A DNA stretch of 64,000 nucleotides from Desulfobacter hydrogenophilus (GTDB lineage Bacteria > Desulfobacterota > Desulfobacteria > Desulfobacterales > Desulfobacteraceae): positions 4,156,501 to 4,220,500 of the forward strand of contig NZ_CP036313.1 of assembly GCF_004319545.1 (NCBI RefSeq). Reading direction: 5' to 3'. Position numbers and translations under genes: made by a program. Below, in pieces: positions 3,894-29,286 of the stretch (position 1 is the stretch's first letter; each line of letters begins with the position of its first letter). The notes under the pieces are model-generated. The model worked only from the letters and a program-made list of their open reading frames with translations, did not search any database and was not told the origin of the DNA.

Positions 3894-4076
3894 AATAAAC
3901 AAAAGGTAGAAACCAAATCTCAATTTAACTGGAGGTGAACAACACTATGAAATAATCCGGTTTTTTTAGAAAGCCCTAAAAAGGGCCACGCTATAGGTGC
4001 GTCTTACCTCCGGCGCCCGGAAATCACAATCCTTTCAGATCCTTAATCCTCAAAAAGATATTTTCATATATATGGA

Positions 4077-4102
4077 AAGCCCGGCTCATTTTGGCCGGGC
4101 TT
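4077..4102 (+). terminator. Strong hairpin downstream of the transposase
   Basis: AAGCCCGGC and GCCGGGCTT form a perfect 9-bp stem around TCATTTTG. No T-run follows, so it may be a terminator of weak efficiency or a structural end signal of the IS91-type element. It lies inside the right inverted repeat of the element. Confidence 0.45.
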
Positions 4103-4197
4103 GTTCAACAATCGGATAAGATCGTGGTTCGTTCCTCACACGATCTATCCTTATTCGTTCGGATAAATAGACTACCTATTCAAGGGTACCAGTGCCA

Positions 4198-5442
4198 CTT
4201 CATTCACAGTTGATTCAACAAAGGCAGTAGAAATGATTTCTCCAGGCCCATGCTTAGGACTGCGGATTTAACTATTTCCTAAATTGAGCGTTTGACTTGC
4301 TTGATTACAGGTCTTAAATAAAAACACTTTCGGGTGTTATTAAATCCTCAATCCTTAGGGTTTGCCACCGGTTTGGTATGGTCTCACACTCATAGATTCA
4401 AACAGAAAGTCACTGCAAATAATATGCCGTGTATTTTTCCAGTATCTCCACCAATATGCTGACAGTTTATATTCGAAGCCTGGATAGCATTTTGATCAAT
4501 CATAGAGTAAGGAGACCCCAATGGAAATGGTAAGTTGATGTTACAAAATTTGGCATATCATGTGACAGAAATTGGTTGAATACATCGGAAAGGCCGTTTT
4601 CGTTGATACTTTTATCTCACTGTAATAATTAAAAATAGTTTATTTTGGCGTAAAATCAGTCATAAATTTAGTTTCAAAAAACTTACAATAGAAAACATTG
4701 GCTATAATTTTTATTCCATTGAATGTTTTGGTATTCTGGCTTTTTTTATTTCAATGGGCTTTAATTTACTAATACCTCTTGGACAAGGGCGTTTCCTGAA
4801 AAACAGTTGCCGGATTTTGAATAGTCTCTGTGTCCGAAACTTGCAATAGGGTATTTTGGCACAACGCCCGAAAAGGAGCATTTTGTGATCCAGCCCTCAA
4901 CTGGCGACCTTGATCGACTCTACTTTGGCGCTTTTCATGGCCGTACACCGCCTTAACGCCCAAAGAACGTCAAGCCGATCTCTCATTTTGATGGTGGCCG
5001 TTGCGAACTCACCAAAGCCCAGGATCGGGGGATGCCATCGACATTCAAGAAATTATTTAGGAAATGGTCAAAGGCGCGATCAGTGAAAAATTTGACGCAT
5101 AATCTCCAAAATATACCTTTTCGGGCGTTGTGCCAAAATACCCTTCTTCTTCCCTTGGCCGCCGCTCTACCGCCAGCGGCGCGTTCAGCCTTAATTTCCC
5201 GCTCCATCTGGGAAATAACGCCCATGCTTCATAAACTGTATCTCAGAACAGCGACCCTCCTGTTAGGCCAATTCAGATCGCTATGATTCGAATAATGGCT
5301 CGTAGACTGGCTTTCGAGGGATAAAAGGGGAAATGTTTTTCAGACACGCTCTTATGGCCGAAGAAAAAAACTAAAAGATACCAGATCTTGTGGCCAGACA
5401 AATCCACGGAATTTTCAGTCGTTATTGTATTTTGAAATCCAT
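4198..5442. other. Gene-free, AT-rich remnant region before BREX
   Basis: No convincing gene was found between the mobile element and brxL. Short open frames here have neither ribosome-binding sites nor recognisable domains. A 28-bp inverted repeat (4849-4876 and 5116-5143) is the only clear structure. 5023-5100 reads, with one stop, like the N-terminus of a transposase (DIQEII, then EMVKGAISEKFDA), but this is too short to assign. No clear terminator for the BREX operon was seen. Confidence 0.5.
4849..5143. repeat. Perfect 28-bp inverted repeat bounding a 239-bp spacer
   Basis: 4849-4876 (GGGTATTTTGGCACAACGCC...) is the exact reverse complement of 5116-5143. The match continues imperfectly inwards around an ATTTTG on each side. 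The 295-bp unit contains no gene. It resembles a MITE or two facing ends of a lost IS. No flanking target duplication is visible. Confidence 0.7.
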
Positions 5443-7500
5443 TCAATTGCCAGCCTCAACACCCTCTGATTTTATAAACGTTACCTCGAACGCCTTGCAA
5501 GGCCGAAACTGCTGCAGTCGATTTGTGAAAGTAAAAGCATCATTCATCTCATAATGCTGAAAGATATCGAGACCTCGATCAAGAGATATTTTCCAACCGC
5601 AGTCGGTCACTATGTGGCGGGCATGTATGGTGCCAGTGTCGTCGAATTCCCAGGTGAAATTGATCCCCAAAGCCCTGGCAGACTTTTTCATCTTTTCTAA
5701 GTTTTCCTTCTGCTGTTCACTTTTGAAATCATCTTCCGAAGTCAATAGATGAATGTCCACTTCCTCGTCCGGTGCCTTATGTTTAACTACCGTTTCCAGA
5801 AATTCCATGAAATTACGCATCTGGTAGAATAAACGGATGTACGGATCGGTAACCGTAATCTCAGTCGCACCAATGAGATAGGGGCCTAACAGCGTATCAA
5901 AAGAGATTCCTTTCTGGTTTTCCTGAAACGTGAGATGTTGCTCCTTGAGAACTGTTAAGGGTTGGTGATTAACCGGTTGCACGATGGGTTCTGCCGTATC
6001 GGGTATTATACCATCTTCTTCCACAGCAATGGTTTTGTGGTAGTGGTTGGGATTCTCCTCTTCTTCAAGGGTGGTGACAGGGTTGTTTTTTCCCTCTGCA
6101 TCGATATAGGAAAAACAGACATTGTTGTATGTAGAATCCATTCGCATCAATTGGTCTTTGACACGTTTTCGGCCTTCAATGGCAAACCGTAACAGTTCCT
6201 CTATCTCTTCCTTGGTCGCCCCGTCATGCGGGAAGAGAATTTTCATTAGGCCTGAAAATGTCTTGTTGATACCATCACGATCTCGGGTTGAAATATCGGA
6301 GGAGAGGGTAAAGTGCTTTTTGTATCGGTCCGAGTAATCATAATTGCGCAGCGAACGCAGGATTTCGGCCAGATAGTCCACTACAAACCCGTAACCGCTG
6401 GAAAACATTTCGCCTCGGATGATGTCAACTTCCCAGCCAGGGATATAGAAATGGATGCGGTCGAGGAATGCTGAGTCGTAGAATTTTTCGGGTAGTTCGC
6501 AAAATAGGTCTGAGTGTTTGAGCATGTATGGCACTGTGTGTTGGGTGTTGCCCACAAAGACCATAGATGCCTCAGCACCCAGCGTCTCAACGCCGCGTGA
6601 GAAGGACTTGTTGGCCATGTAGTTCTTCATGATGTCGACCAAAGCCTTGTCCACGCGTTTTTTCTTTCCGGCAAACTCGTCGAAGGCAACACAGTCCCAG
6701 TAGCCGACCAGACCGATTTTTCCAGTAGAGTTATTTACGAACAGCTTTGGAACCGTGACCTCTCCGCCGGAAATCAGAATGCCGTGGGGTGAAAACTCTG
6801 AATAGATGTGTGATTTGCCGGTTCCCTTAGGGCCAAGCTCAATCAGGTTGTAATTGCGCTCACAAAATGGGATCAGGCGGACCAGCTGGGTCAGCTTGCT
6901 GCGTTTGCCGAACATATCTGGGTTGAAGCCGATGCTTTGAACAAGCAGGTCAATCCACTCGTCGGTAGTAAATTGTTTACGTGCCTCTACGTAATCATCA
7001 AAACTGAAATGAGATAGCTGAATCGGCTTGAGCGTCGACATGATCCAGGGGCTGGCGTTCTTTTCTTCGGTGAATTCATATTCGATGTCTGCAATACACC
7101 ACACACCGCTGACCAGCAGCTTGGGGTGGATCTTGACCGTACCCGAATCTACCAGCACCTTCTTGATGCCGAGATTGGAAAACTCCGCCTCGTAGACATC
7201 TGCCTTGTCGTTCAGCGCCACGCTGATCTTGTCGATTACCTTGTAACGCCCCTTCTCTTTGATATTCGAGCGGACCAGCCCCGCTTCGTTGCGATGAACG
7301 TAATGCTTGCGCAGTATCTCTTTGACCGTCTTGATGCCGGTCTGGATACTTGCCTCATCACAGGTGGCGCAATACTGCCCCAGTAGGTATTCCAAAACGT
7401 AGGAGGGAACAATGGCGTTTCCTTTAACCGTCTTGACAAGATCTTTACGGACAACGAGTCCTGGGAAGTGTGTGTTTATTTTCTGGTCAAGTTCGTTCAT
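5443..7500 (-). CDS. brxL: BREX system Lon-like protein BrxL
   Basis: This 685-residue protein is last in the BREX operon, 13 nt after pglZ. It has an AAA+ core with Walker A GPKGTGKS at about residue 225, and FDEFAGKKKRVDKALVDIM and VFVGNTQHTVPYM further on. The C-terminal region (from FDTLLGPYLIGATEI, about residue 540) resembles the MIT_C-like domain seen in many BrxL proteins. The protease region of classical Lon is not evident. BrxL is known as a DNA-binding AAA+ ring needed for phage exclusion but not for host methylation. The length agrees with type 1 BrxL. No frameshift or missing ATPase residue was noticed. Confidence 0.92.
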   Translation of the reverse strand: MNELDQKINTHFPGLVVRKDLVKTVKGNAIVPSYVLEYLLGQYCATCDEASIQTGIKTVKEILRKHYVHRNEAGLVRSNIKEKGRYKVIDKISVALNDKADVYEAEFSNLGIKKVLVDSGTVKIHPKLLVSGVWCIADIEYEFTEEKNASPWIMSTLKPIQLSHFSFDDYVEARKQFTTDEWIDLLVQSIGFNPDMFGKRSKLTQLVRLIPFCERNYNLIELGPKGTGKSHIYSEFSPHGILISGGEVTVPKLFVNNSTGKIGLVGYWDCVAFDEFAGKKKRVDKALVDIMKNYMANKSFSRGVETLGAEASMVFVGNTQHTVPYMLKHSDLFCELPEKFYDSAFLDRIHFYIPGWEVDIIRGEMFSSGYGFVVDYLAEILRSLRNYDYSDRYKKHFTLSSDISTRDRDGINKTFSGLMKILFPHDGATKEEIEELLRFAIEGRKRVKDQLMRMDSTYNNVCFSYIDAEGKNNPVTTLEEEENPNHYHKTIAVEEDGIIPDTAEPIVQPVNHQPLTVLKEQHLTFQENQKGISFDTLLGPYLIGATEITVTDPYIRLFYQMRNFMEFLETVVKHKAPDEEVDIHLLTSEDDFKSEQQKENLEKMKKSARALGINFTWEFDDTGTIHARHIVTDCGWKISLDRGLDIFQHYEMNDAFTFTNRLQQFRPCKAFEVTFIKSEGVEAGN

Positions 7501-7513
7501 TGGTCACCTATCC

Positions 7514-10012
7514 TTAAAAGTCGAAATCGCTGGTAAATGAGCGCCGCATCAAGTACCGGAGCGTCTTGTATTCTTTATAATGTGACGTCCCCGCATGCTT
7601 TTCCTCTAAACGAAGAATGACCTCCTGACCGTTGACGTCGTCGGCCTTACGGGTCAGTACAAAGCGTACCTGTAGTTCTCGTTCCCGGGGATTATCCGAG
7701 TATAGGTCGAAGGTAAGGTCGTGGCTGTCGGAGATCAGGTCACCTGCCTCCGTATAGATACCAGCCCGCAGCACACGCGGCTGGATTTTATCCGTTACTG
7801 GTCCGGCCTGGTACATGGTCACCGCCAATTGCCCGGAGGTAATCACCGAGCTGGCTCCGCGTAGTATATCCACCTCGACGGTGGTCACATCACTTTTGCG
7901 CCTTTTATTAATCTTTAGTACCGGGATCACCACCTCCTGCAACGATGCTCCGCCATGCACAAAGCGAGAGCCTGAACCCTTCAGGCGCAGGCGGTTAATC
8001 GACTTGGGAATCTGCACCTCCACCTCACCAGTAAGGCCAAGTTGCTCGGAGGTGAACTTGTGCAGGCTATGTGCTTCGGCAAGTCCCTTGCCCAGCACGA
8101 AGCGGCGGTCACGAAACAGAATATGATCGCCCTCGGCATCCACTCCGGAAAAGTCACTTTCATCAATAGCTCGGTTTTGGTAGATGAAGCCGTGATCAGC
8201 AGTAACTAAGAAGTTGTATAAATTGGCATTGTTTAGTTTTTTGATTAGACGAATGAGTTCTTGCAGGCTGTCTTCTACTGCTTCGAAAACCCGCTCCTCA
8301 GACTCCCGCTTGTCTCCGGTGGCGTCGATTCGGTTATGGTAGACGTAGATCACGTCATGATCGCGTACCAGCGCCCGGCAGTCGTCTCCCCTCATAGCCA
8401 TCAATTCATCGGCCTTGCAGGCCGTTGCACGAGCCCCCGCGGATTGACCGAGAATCTTGATGCGGTTTGCCGTTCCCTGAGAGCTTTGCCCATCTACCAA
8501 CACACTGCCGGTTTCGTTGTTAGCAATCGCCAGCACCTCATTGGGCAGTAGCGCCGCCATACCGAGCTGAGTGTAGCTGGGCAGCATTGAAAGTGCTGGT
8601 TCCAGTTCAGCACTGTACCGATCTTCCTGGCGGATGAGACTCAGCAGCTCATCTCCGATTTCATAGCGCATGGCATCGGAGATAATCACGCAGATCTTGT
8701 TGTCCTTGCGCAGGAAGGGACGCACCCAGTGCTTAAAAAAGGTCTTCTGTTTGATCACTGGAAAGGCTTCCCATTTGGATGCCTCATCAACAAAAGTCTG
8801 GAAGCGGTCTCCCAGCTTGAGCAGGTAATTGTTGGCGTAGAGATTTTCAATCTGATCAGTGAGGCTGCCTATCAGTGATGCCTGCCCAGACATGCGCACG
8901 TGAAATGTGAACTTGCGGTAGAGTTGATCGAGCCGGTACCAGAATCGGCTGTAGCGTTGAACGCCTTCGGCCAGACTGTCCATGGTGAGTTTAACCTCGG
9001 CCAGGGCATGGGTAAACTGGGCCGCGTAATCGACAGTCTCGTACAAATGGCGGTATTCTTTATACCAATGACTTTGCCGCCGCTGGCGGATCCAGAGCGA
9101 TACATCCGGGCTTGTGACCGTGGACGATGCCACAGCCCGGACCAAATCACTGATGATTTTCTGATCGATCAGGCGAAAATAATCCAGTTCCATCAATTCT
9201 CGGAAATCCCGTTTGGCCAGATCCTGTTCAATGCCAAGAACCTCCGCACACTCTCCAGAGAGAGCTTCAAAACCGCCTTCAAACTGACGACTGTCTTTCC
9301 AACGCTTGAGATACACCAAAGCGTCTCCGGTCAGCTTCACCTGACCGTCAGTGCCCATGGCATAGCATGACTTGAATAGCTCGATTGAAAAATCACGGAT
9401 ACCCGGCTCGCCAGACTTGTAGCCATAGCAGCGAGTCATCTGTTCCCAGAGGAACCCATCGAGGTTGCACCGGCCGACCAAGTTGATCTTTGCATCCCTA
9501 CAGTTAGCCAGTTCCTGTAGCAGGTTTTCCACCACCGCATCCATGCGAGGCTCACTGCCTGTGCATACCGCCAGCATCTTCAGGCGAATCTGTCCTGCGG
9601 TGTCGTCTGAGTTCAGCATTTTTTTGAGGGCATCTTTGCGTTTGACTGCCTGGAAAAACTCTGCATGGGCCTGCACTACATCTGTGAACTCCAGGCCAAG
9701 TGCAAGCTCGGACAGCCAGATGGCTACCTGATCAGTGCGGAACTCGCCGTGGGCCAGTTGTACATCCAGTAGCCAGTTATCCATATCAGGAGGCTGAGGG
9801 CCTTCTCGGTAGAGCAGGAATTTCTGTTCTGGCTGTTCTCGCAAAATCCGGTATTTGATGCCGTACTCGTTGTTGGTGAGTTCCAGCTTCTCGACACAGG
9901 GCAGCGACAACGCCTCAAAGTCGCCACGCAGTTCCTGCTTGGCATCATACCAGAAGATTATCCGGTACCGGTCAAAGAGTTTGGTCAGGGCCTTGGCTAT
10001 ACGGTTGTTCAT
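7514..10012 (-). CDS. pglZ: BREX-1 phosphatase-like protein PglZ
   Basis: This 832-residue protein belongs to the alkaline-phosphatase superfamily. The metal-binding motif VIISDAMRYEIGDELLSL is at about residue 441 and LVTADHGFIYQNRA at about 603, both typical of PglZ domains. The N-terminal half is helical, and the C-terminal part is beta-rich (LRLKGSGSRFVHGGASLQEV). Its start overlaps the end of pglX by 4 nt, so translation is coupled. PglZ is a core BREX protein that associates with PglX and is required for both methylation and defence in studied systems. Its length matches PglZ type A. Confidence 0.93.
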   Translation of the reverse strand: MNNRIAKALTKLFDRYRIIFWYDAKQELRGDFEALSLPCVEKLELTNNEYGIKYRILREQPEQKFLLYREGPQPPDMDNWLLDVQLAHGEFRTDQVAIWLSELALGLEFTDVVQAHAEFFQAVKRKDALKKMLNSDDTAGQIRLKMLAVCTGSEPRMDAVVENLLQELANCRDAKINLVGRCNLDGFLWEQMTRCYGYKSGEPGIRDFSIELFKSCYAMGTDGQVKLTGDALVYLKRWKDSRQFEGGFEALSGECAEVLGIEQDLAKRDFRELMELDYFRLIDQKIISDLVRAVASSTVTSPDVSLWIRQRRQSHWYKEYRHLYETVDYAAQFTHALAEVKLTMDSLAEGVQRYSRFWYRLDQLYRKFTFHVRMSGQASLIGSLTDQIENLYANNYLLKLGDRFQTFVDEASKWEAFPVIKQKTFFKHWVRPFLRKDNKICVIISDAMRYEIGDELLSLIRQEDRYSAELEPALSMLPSYTQLGMAALLPNEVLAIANNETGSVLVDGQSSQGTANRIKILGQSAGARATACKADELMAMRGDDCRALVRDHDVIYVYHNRIDATGDKRESEERVFEAVEDSLQELIRLIKKLNNANLYNFLVTADHGFIYQNRAIDESDFSGVDAEGDHILFRDRRFVLGKGLAEAHSLHKFTSEQLGLTGEVEVQIPKSINRLRLKGSGSRFVHGGASLQEVVIPVLKINKRRKSDVTTVEVDILRGASSVITSGQLAVTMYQAGPVTDKIQPRVLRAGIYTEAGDLISDSHDLTFDLYSDNPRERELQVRFVLTRKADDVNGQEVILRLEEKHAGTSHYKEYKTLRYLMRRSFTSDFDF

Positions 10013-13000
10013 TTGCTAAGTCCGGTTATTTTCTTTAAAGCTTTGCCGAATTTGGGGTAGTTGACCTTTACGCCATCATCAAGGTCGATATCTACCTGCT
10101 CGGTGGCCAACGGGTAGAGCACATCGTGCTCGTATTCCTCCATCTCGGCGATCATTTTGGTTATCTTTTCGATCTCCTTGATGGCTCGGGTCTTCTCAGC
10201 TTGGCTACTGCTTGCACTGATGCTGACAGCCTCCAGATGGTTTTTGTGGGAAGTAAGTTTGGTGCTGAACTCGCGCAGGTAGTCGTTGAGTACCACGCTG
10301 ACCGTATCCGGGCGGTATCGGTGCATGTATATTAGCGCGTTAAAGCTGCCCTTGGGGCTTGAAAACAGCCAGTAAATGGGACGCTTCTTGTAGCGTTTCC
10401 AATGGTCGATGTAAAATTCACTGAGAAAATAATTGCGGATGCTGTAGTTGCGTTTGCCCTTAATATTAAGCGCCTTTTCAACAAACTCTAAGTTTTCCTC
10501 GTAGTGGGCCTCACCAAAGGTCACACGCAGGAACTTGCGGAACCGTTCGGCAATGTCATCAGAGAACCAGTCGCCGTTTAGCAAGGGGATGACGTTGTCG
10601 TCATCAGCCTGAAAACGAGGCTCCGAAATCCTTTCCAAATAATTTTCTATACTCTCGCCTTGGTTTGCCAAAATCAGCCCCGGCTTTTCCAACGCGTAAC
10701 GGCCAAACATACAGCCCACAGCATAGGAGACCAACTCGCGCATAGTGTCGGCCAGTAGCAAAGCTTCAAGTTCTTCCTCGCTTTTGTCTTTACCATAGCG
10801 GTAATGCGGGTTACAGGTTAGGGTGATCTCGTTGAGCGGCACCTCGGGTGTAAGCTCATCCTGTAGGCCGTAAGCATTGATAAAAATAAGGTTGTTTTCT
10901 TCCTCCAACCGCTGCATCTCCAGTGCTATCTTTTGCCAATGGGCGCGTAGCTTCTGATAGGTGGCCTTCAGGGTTGGCTCGTGGTAGTCGGGATTTATGA
11001 GAGGCGGACTGGTGAAGCCCCAGGAGATTTCATAGGAATCCCAATCCCTTTTCGAAATGGCAACCAAACTGAATTGTTCGGTTGATCTTCTCTGCACGGT
11101 TAAGGTCGATGGACATTTATATGGTACGCGAGAAAGATCACCAACTTGAAACGTTGAGGTTGGATTAACGCATTTCATGAATGCTGGCATTAGCTTGCTG
11201 CAGAGGAGCGAAAGGATGACATCAATCCTTCCCTCAAAAGTTGGAATGCCAGAAGATCCCTTTACATCGAATAGAAAGCCTTTTGGAGAATACCGGGCTG
11301 CAAATGAATTAGTGGTTATATCTGACCATGTAATGCATTCTTGGAACATGCGGTCTAAATTCTGAATATATCTCGACCAATGTTTGCCGGCATTTCTTTT
11401 CCTGGCGAACTCTTTAAGCTCAAACCCATTATTTTCCCAATTAAGAATAAATGATTGGTTCCCATACCACTTTCTATATGATCCGCCTTTATTGTATGGG
11501 AACCACCTTTGAGGTAACTCCTTAGCAGATTCAATAGAATCGCATGAAAAATAAATCCCTTGAAATGAAACTTCAAACCATTGACGTAAAAATCTATCAT
11601 TGTCTCCAGTATTAAGACCGACCGCTGGTTTGAAAACATCCTTAATTGCAGGAAGAGCCTGAAAGTTACGTCGGAAATTTTGAGACAACCAATATGCTAT
11701 TGGCGCCCCAGTAATTGAAACAAACTCCTTAGCCGAAGTGGAATAAATTGGCCTACTACCTGCCGCTGCGTCAAAAAGCAGATTCTTTTTCTCGTTTTCT
11801 GATCTTCCATCTTTTAAGTCAATAAATCGACCGTAAAGACTTATATTTACAGCATTATGCAAGATGAAGGCGGTTGTAGAAACAACCTCTCCACTGATGC
11901 TGTCGAATGCATTGGTTCCGAGGTGAGCCATATCTTGAACAGGAGCATTTTCAAGAATCTTTCGCCGTAATTTCTCATGACGAGAAAGGAACATCCAACT
12001 CTGCATCGTGATCATGGCGACCGAGCCGAATTTTTTTGAGAGTTCAAGATTGCGCTCAATAAACATAGCAAATAAATCAGATTTGCTATCCGGGTAGTTA
12101 TCCTTGACCCATGCTGATAATTTTGGATTCATCCCCTTACCTCCCATATACGGCGGATTGGCAATCACCACATGGTATTTTGGGCTGAGGTAATCGGCCT
12201 GCCGCAGGGCTTGCAGTACCTTCTGATGGGTCATGTTGAGGAATAGATGCCCGGAAGTGTTTTTTGATTCCAGAGTCTTGAGAATATTGCTCACATCGTT
12301 GGCCTCCGGGCGAATCAGGGATCCGAAGTTATCGGCCTCTTCGAATTGGCGCAGGGTGGATAATAGTTGTACGGTGAACAGGTCATGTCCCAAAAAATCC
12401 GTGTAGTCTTTAAGCTCACCCTCGTCAAACCGGATATTTTCCAGCACGCAGATGTTCGGCTTGATCCTCTTATTGAAGAACCGGCGCTGTTTTGCCCGGG
12501 CCTTCATAGTCAAGGCAAAGGCAGCCAATTCTCCGGCGCGTTCATCAATCTCAATGCCGTAAAGGTTGTGAGTGAGAATCTTCTCCGGGATTTCTGCAGG
12601 TTCGTAGCCTTCCTCCTCATAGATGGCATATAGCAGTTCAAAGGCGTAGGTGAGCATGTGGCCGGAGCCGCAGGCCGGGTCGCAAATTTTGATATCTTCG
12701 GGTGTTGCAATGCGCAAGAAATCAGTTTCAACCTGCTTATCACCCGCAGGGGGGATGTAGTAATCCATCTGCTTAATCAGCTTGGAGTCGGGGCGATTGA
12801 GCAGCCACAGGCGGCCCAAGGAGTTTTCCATCAGGTAGCGCACAATATAATGAGGAGTGAAGAGCTGGGTGGCGGCGGGAATATTATCTGGAGTAATCTT
12901 TTTATTTTTCTTGAGCCCCGTGAACACATCATCTTTCTTCTCAGAGATGTAGAACTGGTAAAGCCAGCCGATCACCTCCACATCCTTACAGACATCGGTT

Positions 13001-13560
13001 GTCATTGCCTCGCGGGTATACGCCAGGATGGAGTTGCCCAAGAGCAGGTCCTCTGGCATCAGCAATTCGGTGTAGTCATCAATACGCTGAAACAGGAACG
13101 GCATGGCCTTATTCCAGAAGTTGCAGGCAGCAACCACCAGCATGCGGTAGGCCTTGCCCTGAGGATCACGGCTGGGCGATTTGCCGTCGAGAAGGGCAAA
13201 GATCTGCTGCCTGGCTTTCTCCGTCACCATCTCCTCATCGATGTACCCCATCTTAGCCTCGGCGAGGATTTCAGGCTGGAATTGCCCCTCAGCAGGAGAC
13301 ACCACGCCGATGCGGCTATATCGGTTGGTATCCATGAAACGCAGGGCACAAAAACGGTTGAACCAGATATAGGCCACCCGTTCAATGACCTGTTCCTTAC
13401 CGTTGGCGTTGATCGCCTCTTCCAACTTCTTGATGGCCTCCGTGCTTCCACGTTGGGCTGCGCTTTTCTCTGCCTGCACCAGTTTTACCTTAGCAGAGAC
13501 TTGCTCCATAAGGCTGCGCCGGGCGAACTGGGCGAATTTTTTGAGTTTTGCTGTTTTCAT
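10009..13560 (-). CDS. pglX: BREX-1 adenine-specific DNA methyltransferase PglX
   Basis: This 1183-residue protein has a large N6-adenine methyltransferase domain. Motif I is ICDPACGSGHMLTYAFELL (about residues 293-311), and motif IV is VVIANPPYMGGKG (about residues 462-474). The middle and C-terminal parts carry the target-recognition region (for example ISWGFTSPPLINPDYHEP). PglX methylates one strand of a short non-palindromic motif to mark host DNA. The sequence cannot tell which motif. It follows the 179-residue gene by 4 nt and overlaps pglZ by 4 nt. Full-length for the family. No homopolymer tract suggestive of phase variation was noticed. Confidence 0.94.
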   Translation of the reverse strand: MKTAKLKKFAQFARRSLMEQVSAKVKLVQAEKSAAQRGSTEAIKKLEEAINANGKEQVIERVAYIWFNRFCALRFMDTNRYSRIGVVSPAEGQFQPEILAEAKMGYIDEEMVTEKARQQIFALLDGKSPSRDPQGKAYRMLVVAACNFWNKAMPFLFQRIDDYTELLMPEDLLLGNSILAYTREAMTTDVCKDVEVIGWLYQFYISEKKDDVFTGLKKNKKITPDNIPAATQLFTPHYIVRYLMENSLGRLWLLNRPDSKLIKQMDYYIPPAGDKQVETDFLRIATPEDIKICDPACGSGHMLTYAFELLYAIYEEEGYEPAEIPEKILTHNLYGIEIDERAGELAAFALTMKARAKQRRFFNKRIKPNICVLENIRFDEGELKDYTDFLGHDLFTVQLLSTLRQFEEADNFGSLIRPEANDVSNILKTLESKNTSGHLFLNMTHQKVLQALRQADYLSPKYHVVIANPPYMGGKGMNPKLSAWVKDNYPDSKSDLFAMFIERNLELSKKFGSVAMITMQSWMFLSRHEKLRRKILENAPVQDMAHLGTNAFDSISGEVVSTTAFILHNAVNISLYGRFIDLKDGRSENEKKNLLFDAAAGSRPIYSTSAKEFVSITGAPIAYWLSQNFRRNFQALPAIKDVFKPAVGLNTGDNDRFLRQWFEVSFQGIYFSCDSIESAKELPQRWFPYNKGGSYRKWYGNQSFILNWENNGFELKEFARKRNAGKHWSRYIQNLDRMFQECITWSDITTNSFAARYSPKGFLFDVKGSSGIPTFEGRIDVILSLLCSKLMPAFMKCVNPTSTFQVGDLSRVPYKCPSTLTVQRRSTEQFSLVAISKRDWDSYEISWGFTSPPLINPDYHEPTLKATYQKLRAHWQKIALEMQRLEEENNLIFINAYGLQDELTPEVPLNEITLTCNPHYRYGKDKSEEELEALLLADTMRELVSYAVGCMFGRYALEKPGLILANQGESIENYLERISEPRFQADDDNVIPLLNGDWFSDDIAERFRKFLRVTFGEAHYEENLEFVEKALNIKGKRNYSIRNYFLSEFYIDHWKRYKKRPIYWLFSSPKGSFNALIYMHRYRPDTVSVVLNDYLREFSTKLTSHKNHLEAVSISASSSQAEKTRAIKEIEKITKMIAEMEEYEHDVLYPLATEQVDIDLDDGVKVNYPKFGKALKKITGLSK

Positions 13561-13564
13561 CTAT

Positions 13565-14104
13565 TTAGGCTCCTCCGGCTGCAGCATCGGCCAAGCGAGT
13601 GACAGGCCATTTCGGGAAGTTTTCGTTCCATTTGTCCACGTTTACGACCTGACAGCTTTTGGCCAGGGCCAGGACCCAGCGGCGTGATGCTTTACCTACA
13701 GGTAACTCCCGCTTCAAAGATTTCTGCATCCGGCTGTTCAAGGCGTTGTCAAAGGTGAGCAGGCAGACGTAGTGAACAGGCTTTTCCACCTTCTGTTCGG
13801 CGTACCGATAGAGGTAGGAATCCCTGAATTTGTATTTCAGATAGTTCTTCAGCCACTTGAAGCTTTTTTGCCGTAGTTTTCTCTCCTCATCAGTCGCCGC
13901 GCCAAGGACGTCGTAAATAGACGAGTCATAATAATCCTTCATTTCCACGTAAACATAGGCTTCTTCAAACTCGGCAACGATGTCAACGCCTTTCATGGGT
14001 ACACCGTGGAATGAGTGTTTTGAGCTGTCCGTCTCGTCAAAAACGAACGCATCCAGAGCATCCTCAAATCGAAATTCGAAACCATCAGCCTCAACAATCT
14101 TCAT
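13565..14104 (-). CDS. Putative PD-(D/E)XK-type nuclease partner of the embedded ATPase
   Basis: I do not recognise this 179-residue protein as a named family. Residues 39-58 read GVDIVAEFEEAYVYVEMKDY. Asp41 is followed after 12 residues by Glu54-Met-Lys56, the spacing of a PD-(D/E)XK nuclease core. A basic helical region follows (ERKLRQKSFKWLKNYLKYKF), and KPVHYVCLLTFD resembles another core strand. The start overlaps the end of the upstream ATPase gene by 4 nt, and pglX follows after 4 nt, so the gene is built into the BREX operon. I infer an effector or subunit acting with the ATPase. It could instead be a non-catalytic accessory protein. Confidence 0.6.
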   Translation of the reverse strand: MKIVEADGFEFRFEDALDAFVFDETDSSKHSFHGVPMKGVDIVAEFEEAYVYVEMKDYYDSSIYDVLGAATDEERKLRQKSFKWLKNYLKYKFRDSYLYRYAEQKVEKPVHYVCLLTFDNALNSRMQKSLKRELPVGKASRRWVLALAKSCQVVNVDKWNENFPKWPVTRLADAAAGGA

Positions 14105-15276
14105 TTACCGAGGCCTCCCATGTCGTTTTCGATCTCCTGGTTGATGAGAAATCCAAAGGCCTCATCAATTGGATTTGGCGTTATCTCCTGATAGTCCTCG
14201 GTGAAGGCAACTTTGATCTCGGATGTTTCCGGGTCACAGTAAAGGCTATGGAAAAGCACATGGTCATCTTTGCCCTTGTCCATGAGCAAGTCGAACCATT
14301 TGAGCAGGACATAGTCATGGGTTGCCAGAATGATCTGCTGGCCGTTGCGTGCCAGCTCCAGCAGGATACGCACGATTCGCTCCATTAGTTTAGGATTCAT
14401 GTTTGACTCAGGTTCATCCCAGAACAGTGGGCCACTCAAACCGGGGAATACTGTTCCGTTGCTCAAGAGTCGATGCAGAATACCAATCTTTCTGAATCCT
14501 TCTGCTGTCATGCTGCTTGAATACAGATGCCCAGTCGTTGCCATGAACTCAGTAACTATGGAATCTTGGTAAATCTGTGCGGCTTTGGCTTGTGTTCGTT
14601 TGGGCGATGGTTTCTCAACATATTTGCCCTCCTGAAAGCAAAAACCACCATTATCCCACTGATAGCGTCCACCGATTAGGTTAACCAATTGTGGAATAAT
14701 TGTGTTAAGACGTGGATCAAGGTTGATTTTGGCCTCTATATCTTCATGAGGAGATTTCATCAATGCATTTGCCAAGTCCACATATCCGTCATCAAAAATA
14801 AGGTCTACAGTGTTTTGATCATGGTTTTCATCGGTCATTCCTTTCACCAGGGAGAGGACTTCCTTGGTCGGGATAAAGATAGCTTCGGCTTGGTACTGCT
14901 CGAAGTTGACACGATCCTGGATGGCCAGCTTCTTGGAATTGTTGAAAAAGGTCGCGGCAATTTCTTGCCCCTGAACGAACCGAGCCGACAGATAGGCCTT
15001 GTCGGTCGCTCCCTGACGATGCATTTTGCCGAATTTGTCATCCAGTGGCATGAAAAGGCGGCACAGCTTGGCTGTCAGCATCTCTTCGATCTCTTTTTCA
15101 CTGGTATCATGTTTGCTTTTAAACATCGGCGCACCAGCGCAAAGGCTGTAGGCTGCCTTGAGCAGATGGGTTTTTCCCGTGCCATTTTCACCAATGATCA
15201 CATTGATCTTGGGTGAAAAATCCAGTGTAAGGTCTTTGAAAACCGTGAAATTCTTCAGTTCGAGTCGTTCAATCAT
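14101..15276 (-). CDS. AAA/ABC-type ATPase (OLD/RloA/RecF-like) embedded in BREX
   Basis: This 391-residue ATPase starts MIERLELKNFTVFKDLTLDF. Walker A is GENGTGKT at residues 29-36. The C-terminal ABC-type block comprises GPLFWDEPESNMNPKLMERI (Walker B and D-loop) and IILATHDYVLLKWF (His switch). This is the AAA_15/AAA_21 architecture of OLD, RloA, AriA and similar defence ATPases. It overlaps brxC upstream and the 179-residue gene downstream by 4 nt each (ATGA). No Toprim domain is fused, so it is not an OLD nuclease itself, and nuclease activity, if any, would come from the partner. This pair is not part of the six core type 1 BREX genes. Confidence 0.82.
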   Translation of the reverse strand: MIERLELKNFTVFKDLTLDFSPKINVIIGENGTGKTHLLKAAYSLCAGAPMFKSKHDTSEKEIEEMLTAKLCRLFMPLDDKFGKMHRQGATDKAYLSARFVQGQEIAATFFNNSKKLAIQDRVNFEQYQAEAIFIPTKEVLSLVKGMTDENHDQNTVDLIFDDGYVDLANALMKSPHEDIEAKINLDPRLNTIIPQLVNLIGGRYQWDNGGFCFQEGKYVEKPSPKRTQAKAAQIYQDSIVTEFMATTGHLYSSSMTAEGFRKIGILHRLLSNGTVFPGLSGPLFWDEPESNMNPKLMERIVRILLELARNGQQIILATHDYVLLKWFDLLMDKGKDDHVLFHSLYCDPETSEIKVAFTEDYQEITPNPIDEAFGFLINQEIENDMGGLGK

Positions 15277-18200
15277 ATTTGAATCCTTTTGCCTTTTCGA
15301 ATTTCTTCCAGCAGTGCCTCACGCATGGATGCAAGATAGCCATCCACATCAGTCTCGTCTGCCAGCCAGGCTTTCTCGAATGAGACCTTTACTGACCGGC
15401 TTGGCACATACTCGATGCGAGGGTCGGGTTTGGGCGGTGGCGTGGGTGTACTGCCTTTATCTGGAGTGCCGGTTCTGCCGGTTTCAGGTGCAGACTTCGG
15501 CGATGGTGCCGGTTGTGCCCAGCTTGTTATCCGAGAGAGCTGACGCTGATATTCGCCTTCTTCAAACCGGCGCAGAGAGTCCCGAATAACGGCAATCAAC
15601 TTCTGACGCCCAATAGAAGCTTTAAATTCGCTGAAAGGTTGGGTGATCTGCTCCTGCTGCTCTCCGTTTAAAGTAGCGAATTCAACCATGCCACAGAGAC
15701 GGCTTTTGAGGTCATCAACCGTCTCCTCGGCGTTGGCAATCTCGGCCCTAATCTGGGCGTCGACTTTCTCCTGTAGGGTTTCGACTTGAGTCTTGACCTG
15801 CTGCATACAATTGCCTTTAAAGCATTCCGGATCGTTTAGGCTGGCGACTACCTGAGTAGCTTCATCACCCTCGATATAGGCAAAGTTGGGTTCCTGGGTT
15901 TGGACAAATTTCCGGGCGTTATCAAAGATCCTTTTCAAAGGTCCGTTCATGAACTTTCGGGCCGAGTCAATGACGCCTTCTTTCATGTCGAGCAGCGTGT
16001 CTTCCTGACGGGGAAGTTCGGTGAGATACCAGGTATATGGCTTGCCGGAGAGTCCTTTAAGTTTTTCAAGCACCGGTGTCAATGTATTCAGAAACGGATA
16101 CTGGGATGCCTGAGCAGCAAGCGGAGTGAGTTGATGTATGAGTTCCTGGAGTGCTGTTCCGGTTTCCAGGCCGAGCGCCTTTGCCTCGGAGGCAGCGGGC
16201 GGGGCGTCGAAGAAGTCCTCAAAAAATTCCTTGAGGACTCGGACTTGAGACGCGGTAAATTCGACTTGGGGTTCCAGTACGACATTGCCGTGACCATGGG
16301 TGTTGCGCAGGGCTCGTTCCAGGTCTCCCTCTTCCAATAAATTGCCGTCGGTACGGACCTCGACCTTACCACGGACACACAGATGGGCCAGGGTGCAAAG
16401 CACGGCAGCGTAGTACCAGCCGTATGGTTTGCGCTCGAATTTTTCCAGCATGTTTTTCAGTGTGGTGCGCACGCCACCCCGGTTATTGCTCTGGATGAAT
16501 GCCAAAAGTTCCTGTTCGGATTCGGCCAGAGCGGTGGCATTATTGCCAAACAGCCCCTGTTGTGAAGCTTTTAGGCATTTGGCAATGTCGTTTTCATTGT
16601 AGGTGATGCCGCGCAGCATGCGAAGGTTTGGATATGTACGGGAGACGAGCTCGTGGAATCCTCCTAACACACGGGTCTGAGTGTCTTTGGAACCGATTTC
16701 GATGTCGGCACCGGCAACGAACAGTTTGGCTTTGCTGATAAGGCTTTGGATGGTCTTTTGAAGTTCGGTATACCGTTCTTGGTTTTGGAAGCCCTTGTCG
16801 GTTAGAATACGTCTAACCGCCTCCTGTTGGGTGATCGAGATGTTTTGGCGGATGTATTTCTCAGTTCGCTTATACATGAGGATGTCACGAACAAGGCGCT
16901 CATCCGCAGGCATCAGGATCAGGAGCTCATCACGTCCCCAACTTTGCATTTTCAGGGTTACTTCATCATCAGTATGTTCGTTGAACGGACTGATGACATG
17001 GATGGTCAGCTCATACTCCCGTCCGTACAGCCGATCATCAAGCTTTTTAGAGAATGGGTAGTCTTGGCCGTTCTCAGTATATCGAATCTTTCGATGTTTG
17101 ATGACGTGGTCAAAAACAATTTTTTCAAGCTCGGCGGCAACATCTGACGACTCCACCTCTGTATTTTTAATTTCCTCCTCGACGTCTTTTTCCTCATCGG
17201 TGAGGTACTCATACAGCTCGCCATTACGTTGCACATAGGTTTGCTGTTCCAGAAGACTTAAGGCCTCTTCGACGCGCGTTCTCAATGCGGGTAGATCCTG
17301 ATTGAAGCAGTCCAGCATCAGGACGCACAGGTTCCGAATCGTCGGTTTAAACTCTTTGACATATTTGACAAGGAATAGCGATTTCAACAAACGGATCGCA
17401 AAGGGGCCATCGAGATGATTCTCAGCTTGGATTATGGCGCGCTGGATGTTGGATTTTAACGCAGTGCGAATCCCCTCAAACATCAGATCAAAGGTAGCCA
17501 ATTGGCCTATTTCATAGTCTCCTATCTGGACAGCTACCTGTTGAAAGACACCCAACATAGAGCGCTCACCCACTGAGCTGTGTTTGCCCTCGAATGCGTT
17601 ATGATGGGACAGATTTTGAATGGCTGACTGGAAGAGTGCAAACTGATACGGAATAAATGGATAACTGTCAATGAAGTGATCGCTATCCTGAAAATTTCGG
17701 TAAGTTTGAGAGCCGTCGGCAAAGTCAAAAAGGGTTTTAAAATTGTTGGACTGGGCCTGATAAATATCCGTTAGGAGGCCAATGCCATCTTCTGTTTTCA
17801 TAAGCAGGCGCTTCTGGATGACCTCTGATACGTCGGCACTGGTTAACTTCATCCTGTTGGCAAATCGGGCCTGGATTTTGGAGAAATCATTACCTTGCTG
17901 TTTCCCCATCTCGCCCACAACCTTCCCCATGTCTTCCTGGGCGGTCACAATGACCCAGGCGCGGCCTCGACATTTGGTTGCCAAACTTTCGGCAATGGTC
18001 TGAAGGTTGGTCATCAGTTTGACGTTCTCAGCAATGTACTGCCCGACCTCATCAACAAAGAAATTCAACCGGAATCCTTTTTGATTCTCTTGACTCGATT
18101 GCCGTTGGATATAAAAATTTATCTGTTCGGCAAAATCTTCTATGGAGACACGGTATTGGCTCCGGTATTTGTCCAGTATTCCTATGGCCTGCGCCTCACC

Positions 18201-18839
18201 TTCACCCGTTGCCTGTGCATAAGCTTTGGCAATGTTTTTTGCCTCCAGTAAAGCTTGCTCCCTGCCTTTGTGCCATGTCCTGCCGGCAGTTGCTTCGTAG
18301 GCAGATTGGAACTTTTCGTAGAGGCCACGGCTGTCGAGGTCTCGTTCGAACTGGGCAATGTGTCCCTGCTTGCCGTAGTATCCGCACATCTCGTCAAAGA
18401 CTTTGACAAAAACGGCGAGGAGAGCATCGATCTGTGTTTTACTGATGACGTCCGCTTTCTGGTCGATATTGAACAGAATGCTTTTCGATGGAATGGCAAC
18501 TGCCCGCTTGAGATCACCGCGCAGAATCTCGTTGTCACCACATTTAGGTAAAAAGAGATCAAGAGTCCGGTCCCCGTTTATCTGCCGGTTTCCGAGCAAT
18601 AGTGCCAGCATTTTCAAAAGATGAGATTTACCGGACCCAAAGAAGCCGGAAACCCAAACGCCGTTGGCACCTTCGTAATTGTTGTAGGCATCCAGGAAGG
18701 ATTCAAGCCGTTTTTCAATTTCGTTTGTCAGGACGTATTCTTCAATTTCAAGGCGAAGACTTGCTTCGTCATCAGCTTTAATGACCCCTTCAATCGGTCG
18801 ATCAACTGGCTTGTGAAAAATAGTTTTAAGCGTCATCAT
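15273..18839 (-). CDS. brxC: BREX ATPase BrxC
   Basis: This 1188-residue P-loop protein has VWVSGFFGSGKSHLLKMLAL near residues 61-80 (Walker A GSGKS). A second conserved block, LNFFVDEVGQYIAENVKLM, is at about residue 255 (Walker B-like). Long coiled regions and a Pro-rich linker (TPTPPPKPDPRIEYVP) lie near the C-terminus. BrxC (formerly PglY-like) is a core BREX ATPase. Two Met codons open the frame, and the second may be the true start. It lies 11 nt after brxB and overlaps the ATPase gene by 4 nt. Length is as expected for the family. Confidence 0.93.
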   Translation of the reverse strand: MMTLKTIFHKPVDRPIEGVIKADDEASLRLEIEEYVLTNEIEKRLESFLDAYNNYEGANGVWVSGFFGSGKSHLLKMLALLLGNRQINGDRTLDLFLPKCGDNEILRGDLKRAVAIPSKSILFNIDQKADVISKTQIDALLAVFVKVFDEMCGYYGKQGHIAQFERDLDSRGLYEKFQSAYEATAGRTWHKGREQALLEAKNIAKAYAQATGEGEAQAIGILDKYRSQYRVSIEDFAEQINFYIQRQSSQENQKGFRLNFFVDEVGQYIAENVKLMTNLQTIAESLATKCRGRAWVIVTAQEDMGKVVGEMGKQQGNDFSKIQARFANRMKLTSADVSEVIQKRLLMKTEDGIGLLTDIYQAQSNNFKTLFDFADGSQTYRNFQDSDHFIDSYPFIPYQFALFQSAIQNLSHHNAFEGKHSSVGERSMLGVFQQVAVQIGDYEIGQLATFDLMFEGIRTALKSNIQRAIIQAENHLDGPFAIRLLKSLFLVKYVKEFKPTIRNLCVLMLDCFNQDLPALRTRVEEALSLLEQQTYVQRNGELYEYLTDEEKDVEEEIKNTEVESSDVAAELEKIVFDHVIKHRKIRYTENGQDYPFSKKLDDRLYGREYELTIHVISPFNEHTDDEVTLKMQSWGRDELLILMPADERLVRDILMYKRTEKYIRQNISITQQEAVRRILTDKGFQNQERYTELQKTIQSLISKAKLFVAGADIEIGSKDTQTRVLGGFHELVSRTYPNLRMLRGITYNENDIAKCLKASQQGLFGNNATALAESEQELLAFIQSNNRGGVRTTLKNMLEKFERKPYGWYYAAVLCTLAHLCVRGKVEVRTDGNLLEEGDLERALRNTHGHGNVVLEPQVEFTASQVRVLKEFFEDFFDAPPAASEAKALGLETGTALQELIHQLTPLAAQASQYPFLNTLTPVLEKLKGLSGKPYTWYLTELPRQEDTLLDMKEGVIDSARKFMNGPLKRIFDNARKFVQTQEPNFAYIEGDEATQVVASLNDPECFKGNCMQQVKTQVETLQEKVDAQIRAEIANAEETVDDLKSRLCGMVEFATLNGEQQEQITQPFSEFKASIGRQKLIAVIRDSLRRFEEGEYQRQLSRITSWAQPAPSPKSAPETGRTGTPDKGSTPTPPPKPDPRIEYVPSRSVKVSFEKAWLADETDVDGYLASMREALLEEIRKGKRIQI

Positions 18840-18850
18840 ATTTCCCTTGT

Positions 18851-19462
18851 TTATACTTCGCAGTGAAAGATGTCGAATGCCCGATAGTACTTGTCATCAT
18901 GAAGCCTTCCAAAAAGATCGAGAGATGCTCCGGACTCCAGGGAATGGGTGTAATCTCCCGGGAAAAACATGACGGTAGGCTTTTCTTTGGCTGTGCTCTG
19001 CAGATTATTCAGTACATTGTGTGAACGAATGTAGGGGAACACCTCGCCAACCCCAGAAAGGAAAAGAACATCAAAATCCGTGTTTGCCAGCTTGGCGGCT
19101 ATGACCGGAACCAAATGCGTCTCTGGATCCAGCACTCCCTGTAGCAGTTCCTTGAGTTCTCCTTTGGAGACAGACGTCTCAATTTCGAGAATCTGATTCC
19201 AGATATCACGCTCTTTGAGTATTTCTATGGAAAGGTCATAGAGATTGATCTCAAGGATCCGGACACCAGCCTGTTCAAGACGATTGACCAGCTGATGCTG
19301 AAGTCGTTCCATTTCAACGGACTCATCAGACTTGAAAGAACAGATGAAAAACGGCACCTCATTTCCAAGCCCCTGCTTGTTGAGGAAACGTTGACCTGAA
19401 ATCACAGCATAGAGATGCTGAAATCTGTCTTGCATTGACATTATAGCTATATCTGCTGCCAC
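18851..19462 (-). CDS. brxB: BREX protein BrxB (DUF1788)
   Basis: This 203-residue protein carries the DUF1788 landmarks GNEVPFFICSFKSDESVEM and DFDVLFLSGVGEVFPYIRSH, and MFFPGDYTHSLESG near the C-terminus. BrxB is a small core component of type 1 BREX of unknown biochemical role. It is placed between brxA (1-nt overlap) and brxC (11-nt gap), the canonical order. No odd features were noticed. Confidence 0.93.
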   Translation of the reverse strand: MAADIAIMSMQDRFQHLYAVISGQRFLNKQGLGNEVPFFICSFKSDESVEMERLQHQLVNRLEQAGVRILEINLYDLSIEILKERDIWNQILEIETSVSKGELKELLQGVLDPETHLVPVIAAKLANTDFDVLFLSGVGEVFPYIRSHNVLNNLQSTAKEKPTVMFFPGDYTHSLESGASLDLFGRLHDDKYYRAFDIFHCEV

Positions 19463-20073
19463 TAAATCATCCCCTTTAGATCATATTCAAAAACAGGAAA
19501 GTACAAAACATCCCTATTGCTGTCTTGCGTAATTACTTCCAACAGCCTCTCACTTAGCATGGCAGCGTTAATGGTATTGTTGGCCGTTAAGAGGTCCGTC
19601 TCTCGAAGTATTCTGAATAAGATCTGCCGCAATTTACTTCTCGTGGTTGGGCTAATTCCATCCAATTCTGAGTGCAAATCGGACTTTTGGTTGAAAAAAA
19701 CGTCGAAATCCTTATGGGTCAAATCCGTCTTCAGGGTGATGTGGCGCTCTCGAAGCACTTCGACGGCAAAATCAGCAATGAATCTGTACCGCCGGCAAAC
19801 AGCAATCCATAAAATATAGCCTTGCTCTTGATGGTTGCCTTCAACAAAAAATTCAAGCTCACCAGCACTCAGAGTTTTCAGCCGAGAAATGATTTCGCGG
19901 CATACTCGTTTGAGCGTATTCAGAGTTCTGGCCTGCAATAGATTTTCTGCAATAATTTTATCTCGAACTAAATTCCAATCGCCAAGTTCAAGATACAGCA
20001 CTGCCAGCTTCATCGATTCACGGTGAAAGAGACTGCCCGTTGTAAATGACATGCTGTATCTGTTGTTACTCAT
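19462..20073 (-). CDS. brxA: BREX protein BrxA (DUF1819)
   Basis: This 203-residue protein matches DUF1819/BrxA, starting MSNNRYSMSFTTGSLFHRES. The conserved helices are EGNHQEQGYILWIAVCRRYR and FIADFAVEVLRERH. BrxA proteins are known to be small, mostly helical and able to bind DNA. It is the first core gene of the operon. Its start overlaps the preceding HTH gene by 4 nt, and its stop shares one base with the brxB start. Confidence 0.93.
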   Translation of the reverse strand: MSNNRYSMSFTTGSLFHRESMKLAVLYLELGDWNLVRDKIIAENLLQARTLNTLKRVCREIISRLKTLSAGELEFFVEGNHQEQGYILWIAVCRRYRFIADFAVEVLRERHITLKTDLTHKDFDVFFNQKSDLHSELDGISPTTRSKLRQILFRILRETDLLTANNTINAAMLSERLLEVITQDSNRDVLYFPVFEYDLKGMI

Positions 20074-23788: not shown

Positions 23789-24220
23789 TTACCCAAGGCT
23801 TTCAGCTAAAATTTCACTTCCCATTTTGATAGCCGTCATTCCGGCTTTTGTACGCTCACTTATCAGGTCACGTTCAAATTCTGCCAGTGCGCCCATGATA
23901 TGAAAGACCAGCTTGCCGCCTGTCGTGGTGGTGTCAATTCCGTCCGTCAGGCTTTGAAACCCTGCCCCCTGCGTTTTGAATCGCTCGATCAGATTACACA
24001 GAAAGCCCAAAGAACGCCCCAGGCGATCCAGTTTCCAGACAATTATAACGTCACCCTTTCCAATCGCTGAAAGCGCTTGAGAAAGGCCGTCCCTCTCCTT
24101 GGCAATACCGCTTATTCCGTCATCGGTATAAATGGTCTCACACCCGGCAGCCGTGAGGGCGTCAATTTGTAAATCAAGATTTTGTTCATCCGTGGAGACA
24201 CGGGCATAGCCTATTTTCAT
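23789..24220 (-). CDS. Serine recombinase (Tn3-type resolvase), truncated before its HTH
   Basis: The N-terminus MKIGYARVSTDEQNLDLQID carries the catalytic serine (Ser9). IVWKLDRLGRSLGFLCNLIE and FERDLISERTKAGMTA are the other family blocks. Resolvases of this kind have about 185-190 residues. This one diverges after AGMTA and stops at 143, so the C-terminal DNA-binding domain is lost and the enzyme should not bind res normally. A matching C-terminal HTH stub lies in the same orientation at 1603-1698. It is probably a gene remnant. Confidence 0.85.
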   Translation of the reverse strand: MKIGYARVSTDEQNLDLQIDALTAAGCETIYTDDGISGIAKERDGLSQALSAIGKGDVIIVWKLDRLGRSLGFLCNLIERFKTQGAGFQSLTDGIDTTTTGGKLVFHIMGALAEFERDLISERTKAGMTAIKMGSEILAESLG

Positions 24221-29266: not shown

Positions 29267-29286
29267 ATCAAATCGGAGGCTGTGTT

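Follow-up and report, generated by a model that had tools for sequence, protein, structure and literature searches.

Does the pair of genes located between brxC and pglX in a bacteriophage exclusion (BREX) operon of Desulfobacter hydrogenophilus belong to the BREX machinery, or does it form a system in its own right? The operon lies within a window of 64,000 nucleotides (contig NZ_CP036313.1, positions 4,156,501 to 4,220,500), to which the coordinates given below refer unless another locus is named. It is complete, occupies positions 5443-20073 of the minus strand and, by the gene order brxA-brxB-brxC-pglX-pglZ-brxL recognised with Pfam and PADLOC, is a type I BREX operon. A sequence-only reading had described the two extra genes as an ATPase and a putative nuclease of 179 residues, forming a possibly undescribed two-component module under BREX control. 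The open reading frames (ORFs), their coordinates and their junctions were found as described there: the ATPase gene overlaps brxC by 4 nt (15273-15276) and the 179-aa gene by 4 nt (14101-14104), and the latter is separated from pglX by a 4-nt gap (13561-13564). The analysis reported here indicates that the pair, which corresponds to the catalogued candidate HEC-02, is probably an optional, self-contained sensor-effector defence module carried in the BREX operon.

The first gene encodes a 391-aa ATP-binding cassette (ABC) ATPase, which matches AAA_21 and AAA_15 in Pfam and the PADLOC HEC-02A model PDLC04213 over residues 1-387 (9.5e-110); its match to the AriA model PDLC02980 is far weaker (5e-20). 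The Walker A motif, D-loop and His switch of an OLD/RloA-type protein, noted earlier, are all present, with DEPESNMNP as the Walker B/D-loop stretch of the translation. No Toprim match was obtained among the 13 Pfam families matched, as had been anticipated. In the structural model (predicted local distance difference test score, pLDDT, 82.4) the core ends near residue 360, and is followed by a separate helix of lower confidence, spanning residues 369-385.

The 179-aa protein, which matches the PADLOC HEC-02B model PDLC04229 over residues 1-172 (1.3e-65), is very probably a PD-(D/E)XK nuclease, as judged from the conservation of its motif and from a model of moderate confidence. The Asp41-X12-Glu54-X-Lys56 arrangement picked out in the sequence-only reading recurs throughout its relatives: in an alignment of 76 rows (40 of 134 listed proteins and 36 locus rows), D41 is kept in 75, while E54, K56 and also E45 are kept in all 76. 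The motif has the PD-(D/E)XK form and is placed by the model on adjacent strands, 42-45 and 50-56. Structure prediction, proposed beforehand as a check, returned mainly matches of restriction-endonuclease fold. At the sequence level, searches of the PDB with the protein or its alignment gave chance-level matches only; there was no Pfam match at E 0.1 and no NCBIfam match, and the single PHROGs match had an E-value of 0.64. With E-values up to 1 allowed, a Pfam scan of 19 HEC-02B members detected 11 families, each of them weakly (best 0.01); four are nuclease-fold families, namely Tox-REase-9 (in 3 of the 19 members), UPF0102, SduA_C and DUF6602. Motif, moderate fold support and coupling within the BREX operon thus bear out the two-component ATPase-nuclease make-up proposed at first.

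Relatives of the pair were compared in order to establish how its parts vary. A total of 57 records was examined (L021 and the duplicates L059 and L093 were left out, L069 and L107 were not entered), and 47 passed the length and adjacency filters, including L094, with a gap of 103 nt, and L033, with an uncertain start; ten did not pass, being truncated, split or interrupted by the end of a contig (L018, L022, L032, L034, L062, L063, L065, L100, L105, L106). The exact 4-nt ATPase/nuclease overlap is common to 37 of the 47 pairs. The nuclease gene has a ratio of nonsynonymous to synonymous substitution rates (dN/dS) of 0.05-0.09 in seven of nine comparisons, those with a computable dS. The recurrence of the pair, the shared overlap, the low dN/dS and the maintenance of D41, E54 and K56 argue against a chance association.

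Over the 47 pairs, the rank correlation between ATPase segment distances and nuclease distances is 0.10-0.46 up to residue 340, whereas values of 0.55, 0.77 and 0.87 are reached for residues 321-360, 341-380 and 361-391, respectively. Since the last 8 residues of the tail overlap the putative ribosome-binding site of the nuclease gene (a GGGAGG sequence at the 3' end of the tail-coding segment), they were left out in a separate calculation, and the correlation was 0.75. The nuclease falls into two principal subfamilies, represented by 20 and 9 loci (the reference proteins of the window and of L025 not being counted). ATPase residues 1-330 differ no more between than within these subfamilies, the values within and between being, for example, 0.77 and 0.78 for residues 266-330, but residues 361-391 do (0.76 and 0.43).

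Because linkage could by itself cause such a correlation, the other junctions were used as controls, in a set of 20 loci where the pair is flanked without intervening genes by a recognisable brxC on its upstream side and by pglX on its downstream side, comparing 120 residues each of BrxC and PglX. The correlation between tail and nuclease is 0.86 in this set (0/2000 permutations), compared with 0.44 for the BrxC end and the ATPase start (1/2000), 0.27 for the nuclease end and the PglX start (120/2000) and 0.36 for the ATPase body and the nuclease (59/2000). In addition, the correlation of the tail is higher with nuclease residues 146-170 (0.86) than with the nearer residues 1-31 (0.64), which is the reverse of a linkage gradient. 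The variation of the tail is tied more closely to the nuclease than to the body of the ATPase to which it belongs. Together with the modelled helix, this suggests that the tail may be a docking helix for the nuclease. The helical moment of the tail helix is not higher than that of shuffled sequences for the window protein (fraction 0.60), and the fraction is below 0.05 in one of ten proteins.

The ATPase itself is a mosaic. When compared with the protein of locus L005, residues 151-255 (segment V2) are only 25% identical, with 37 gap columns, the other segments being 61-94% identical and the nuclease 80-91% by segment. When compared with that of L002, it is residues 49-132 (segment V1) that fall to 43%, between two flanking segments of 85% and 94%, while residues 151-255 are 81% identical. 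DNA identity follows the same pattern: it is 53-68% in V1 against L002 and recovers outside, and against L005 it is down to 43-54% in V2, where the bins with ends at nt 525-825 alone are affected. These local drops, which recover on both the protein and the DNA level, indicate that V1 and V2 have been replaced independently, the nucleotide-binding motifs and the nuclease remaining constant. A complementary exchange is seen between L026 and L005, whose ATPases are 76-94% identical by segment to residue 335; identity is only 45% in the tail and 27-46% over nuclease residues 1-145. At the DNA level, identity is 66-93% for nt 76-900 of the ATPase gene, drops to 36-59% where the bins end at nt 975-1500, and is back at 75-86% at the 3' end of the nuclease gene and onwards into pglX; from this pattern, tail and nuclease core were exchanged as one block.

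Natural chimeras therefore exist of two sorts, with the same nuclease and a different sensor, or with the same ATPase core and a different tail and nuclease; they open two questions to direct test, the signal sensed by the ATPase and the part by which the nuclease is held. It is conceivable, if doubtful, that HEC-02 is in general a modular immune receptor evolving by cassette exchange, in which V1 and V2 would be swapped independently after phage triggers and the C-terminal plug and the nuclease as one block, BREX and other operons being a mere vehicle. Were this so, sensor and effector repertoires would evolve separately, somewhat as proposed for nucleotide-binding leucine-rich repeat (NLR)-like receptors, in a two-gene ABC-ATPase system.

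A mechanism can be proposed on these grounds. The ATPase would act as the sensor, V1 and V2 meeting the infection signal, and ATP binding or hydrolysis would switch its state. The 179-aa effector, made in step with the ATPase through translational coupling, would be held by the C-terminal helix of the latter; when a phage product is sensed, possibly one that disables BREX, the predicted nuclease would be released or activated, and would cut nucleic acid, presumably DNA rather than RNA, so that the phage is restricted or the infection aborted. BREX operons may retain the pair as a second defence layer. By analogy, HEC-02 could be a device similar to PARIS and Septu, of the same anatomy but with a PD-(D/E)XK nuclease, which a variable sensor ATPase would hold by its tail. 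In PARIS, a hexamer of AriA is reported to sequester AriB, and to release it once phage proteins, for example Ocr, are bound (PMC12409363); in Septu, according to reviews, a PtuA hexamer with two PtuB nucleases degrades phage DNA. PglZ is itself reported as a nuclease (PMC11974810), but BREX resistance is said to survive the inhibition of PglZ (PMC12839542), and effectors embedded in BREX operons may therefore supply layered defence.

The same anatomy could be read in other ways. The pair might resemble Rad50/SbcCD, as a DNA-end or structure-specific nuclease complex processing phage replication intermediates directly, with no protein trigger. An ABC ATPase of 391 residues leaves no room for the long coiled-coil arms of Rad50, and the exchange of V1 and V2 is unexpected for a sensor of DNA structure alone. 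Moreover, in 12 of the 17 PtuA rows of the VIA list the alignment includes the tail and extends to residue 391; the 33 SMC/Rad50 rows all end at 357-375. Such a complex is accordingly a decidedly unlikely account of the pair. Alternatively, the ATPase might neutralise a toxic nuclease in a toxin-antitoxin-like pair, serving addiction or the stabilisation of a plasmid or other element in response to no specific phage trigger. Overlapping genes with the ATPase first, a tail that tracks the nuclease and the existence of losses that spare the ATPase (L022, L032, L063) would all fit this explanation, which is nevertheless very unlikely: mosaic sensor segments point to changing recognition, a full-length nuclease frame persists beside a split ATPase frame in L062 and L105, and a tblastn search (E 0.001) with the window nuclease matched a single one of 72,556 plasmid records and was without a match in 50,697 phage records.

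The genomic contexts bear on whether the sensor-effector module is a part of BREX. Similarity to the proteins of the window, L059 and L064 served to identify BREX genes. In the genome collection, the nearest recognised genes are brxC upstream and pglX downstream in 26 of 33 loci; in five of these brxC is 1.8-1.9 kb away, with an intervening gene in at least L009 and L019. The pair adjoins pglX in five further loci, while L018 and L024 have neither gene. Two profile scans, of 395 and 389 genomes, revealed the pair in 27 other genomes, three of which duplicate loci of the collection (G357, G381 and G395, equal to L019, L009 and L025). In 12 of the 27, brxC is the nearest recognised upstream gene, with pglX downstream in 11 of these. 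Three carry the pair in a different BREX slot, namely between PglXI and a BrxH-type helicase in a type III-like operon (L064) or between pglX and pglZ (L102, L103). In two it adjoins other methyltransferase systems (L100, L104), and in ten, some on short contigs and with PADLOC run on some neighbours only, no recognised BREX gene lies beside it. The pair has thus been seen in type I BREX, in divergent BREX and in a type III-like operon, and also where no BREX genes are recognised beside it, in proportions biased towards BREX because the search profile was built from mostly BREX loci.

Conversely, BrxC exceeds the PF25796 cut-off in 9 of the 395 genomes, and four of these carry the pair; of the remaining five, L072, L073 and L074 lack the pair and brxC leads directly to pglX, L071 has AbiLi/AbiLii in its place, and in L070 brxC is followed by a PDC-S13 gene and then by the contig end. 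The slot has a published precedent in BrxU, located between brxC and pglX, as the next slot has in PARIS, located between pglX and pglZ in Salmonella. The pair is thus an optional passenger that shows a marked preference for BREX operons; such is the outcome of the survey of brxC-pglX insertions suggested by the sequence-only reading. A BREX-specific core gene was rejected on the same counts, the pair occurring without recognised BREX neighbours and being absent from other BREX loci.

A closer tie, in which the nuclease is an integral BREX effector that cuts non-self DNA marked by PglX/BrxC, would account for the shared operon with its 4-nt overlaps, for the flanking genes of the 26 loci and of the five beside pglX, and for nuclease distances that correlate moderately with the PglX N-terminus (0.16-0.55). 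It is unlikely. Distances for V1, V2 and the tail do not follow the BrxC C-terminus (rho from -0.24 to 0.04), those of the nuclease hardly do so (0.02-0.29), and the pair is on this basis probably independent of contacts with that part of BrxC. In addition, brxC runs straight into pglX in the three loci just named, ten of the 27 genomes have no recognised BREX gene beside the pair, and natural deletions within BREX operons have removed most of both genes (L034) or most of the nuclease (L032). The early suggestion of control by BREX holds no further than operon membership and probable translational coupling, in view of those ten genomes and of the V1, V2 and tail distances that do not follow the BrxC C-terminus.

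Several observations also weigh against a self-contained defence module. The operon persists after most of both genes was deleted in frame in L034, and after nuclease residues 14-118 were deleted in frame in L032; some loci of metagenome-assembled genomes have broken frames in either gene, and the ATPase frame of L062 and L105 is split. The structural model of the nuclease is of moderate confidence only. The distance correlations ignore shared ancestry, and in the 47-pair set the order of nuclease residues 146-170 and 1-31 is unclear (0.74 and 0.71), which weakens the point against linkage. Finally, PARIS within the Salmonella BREX operon is reported to have been inactive against any phage tested, and its deletion did not lower defence; the backup role is therefore unproven even for PARIS.

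In L032 and L034 the deletions, near position 10000 of each locus, apparently occurred between short direct repeats of about 5 nt, the BREX operon being otherwise recognisable.

Comparison with known systems revealed that the pair corresponds to a previously catalogued candidate for a defence system, and that the general idea has already been proposed. The two adjacent genes match the PADLOC HEC-02A and HEC-02B models over nearly their full length. HEC stands for Hma-embedded candidate, a term of the 2024 preprint of Payne et al. as cited in later papers; the host operon is here BREX, whereas the name refers to Hma. According to one citing paper several HECs, HEC-06 included, showed antiviral activity; no functional test or report of anti-phage activity was found for HEC-02 in literature searches. 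A 2026 survey of BREX (PMC12839542) reports OLD-ABC ATPases paired with HNH, PD-(D/E)XK or PIN nucleases in 594 taxa, within BREX or systems related to it, and suggests that they act as backup effectors. The genes of the window, both inside the core locus, agree with its PD-(D/E)XK dyads in ATPase class, nuclease superfamily, embedding and proposed role. The initial idea, including a backup or anti-counterdefence function, was for these reasons sound but not new, and the suggestion that the module may be undescribed has to be withdrawn. In the portions consulted, the survey gives a class count and describes no mosaic sensor or docking tail; what is added here is the modular anatomy, not spelled out in the consulted portions of the literature on BREX-embedded pairs.

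Four other assignments were tried and rejected. PARIS likewise combines an ABC ATPase with a small effector and, in Salmonella, is located within a BREX operon; its AriB is a DUF4435/Toprim tRNase, while neither AriB nor DUF4435 nor Toprim was matched by the 179-aa protein in Pfam or PADLOC, in agreement with the early remark that it is not obviously the PARIS partner. The OLD family proper was rejected for the lack of a fused C-terminal Toprim domain, the core ending near residue 360 before a single helix. PtuB of Septu and retron PtuA/PtuB pairs is an HNH-type nuclease (PADLOC HNH model), and the 179-aa protein has no PtuB match. AbiL is also a two-gene ATPase module, with a different partner protein, and no AbiLii match was obtained; at E 0.01 only HEC-02B models of PADLOC match the 179-aa protein, which excludes it from PARIS, Septu and AbiL alike. 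In the BREX operon of L071, AbiLi/AbiLii are the genes located between brxC and pglX (5849-7782).

The features of the operon and of the pair are reported in Table 1.

Table 1. Coordinates of the BREX genes, the HEC-02 pair and the segments of its two proteins, with the supporting evidence
Feature	Position	Strand	Evidence
brxA	19462..20073	-	PF08849 9.5e-53
brxB	18851..19462	-	PF08747 4.9e-41
brxC	15273..18839	-	PF25796 7.6e-56; PADLOC BrxC E-value 0, 1928.8 bits
HEC-02A, 391-aa OLD/RecF-like ABC ATPase, no Toprim match	14101..15276	-	
Walker A GENGTGKT, residues 29-36	15169..15192	-	G29, N31, G34, K35 invariant in 33 rows
Variable segment V1, residues 49-132	14881..15132	-	Drop in amino-acid and DNA identity against L002
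Variable segment V2, residues 151-255	14512..14826	-	Drop in amino-acid and DNA identity against L005
Walker B/D-loop LFWDEPESNMNP, residues 284-295	14392..14427	-	W286, D287, E288, P289, E290, N294, P295 invariant in 33 rows
His-switch THDY, residues 319-322	14311..14322	-	H320 invariant in 33 rows
C-terminal tail, residues 361-391, including helix 369-385, modelled as separate	14104..14196	-	Model; distance correlation with nuclease
HEC-02B, 179-aa predicted PD-(D/E)XK nuclease	13565..14104	-	PADLOC HEC-02B, fold matches, conservation
Putative catalytic motif D41-X12-E54-X-K56	13937..13984	-	Conservation in 76 rows
pglX	10009..13560	-	Eco57I methyltransferase 9.4e-25; PADLOC PglX over residues 1-1181
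pglZ	7514..10012	-	PF08665 2.5e-68
brxL, with C-terminal phospholipase D-like domain	5443..7500	-	PF13337 6.2e-133, PF16565 5.5e-45

An HKD nuclease at the C-terminus of BrxL is mentioned for type 1 BREX in PMC12839542. A search of the source genome with one HEC-02B model detected a single copy of the 179-aa gene.

Further defence genes were observed around the relatives. The operon of L093, on the same contig as L025, has a Septu PtuA/PtuB pair between pglX and pglZ (15299-17217) and the HEC-02 pair in the brxC-pglX slot, and so combines two ATPase-nuclease modules. In L101, from the same genus as the window, a HEC-06/Orf5-type gene lies between pglX and pglZ (4043-5764); this genome has a divergent HEC-02 pair as well. 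BREX-internal genes of L069 (6561-8234, 557 aa) and L059 (13269-14807, 512 aa) give modest PADLOC matches to prokaryotic Argonaute (pAgo)/SIR2-Ago models. In L068, a 1005-aa gene (6066-9083, minus strand) matching MADS mad3 and mad8 adjoins a HEC-02 pair that has no recognised BREX neighbours.

In the window, the BREX region is bracketed by a transposase-like ORF (2850-3893, plus strand) and a resolvase-like ORF (23789-24220, minus strand), judged from their translations, which suggests that the region may be a mobile island. Further on, at 27587-35058 of the plus strand, the translations of two adjacent large ORFs resemble a two-partner secretion pair, putatively an outer-membrane transporter and a filamentous-haemagglutinin-like exoprotein.
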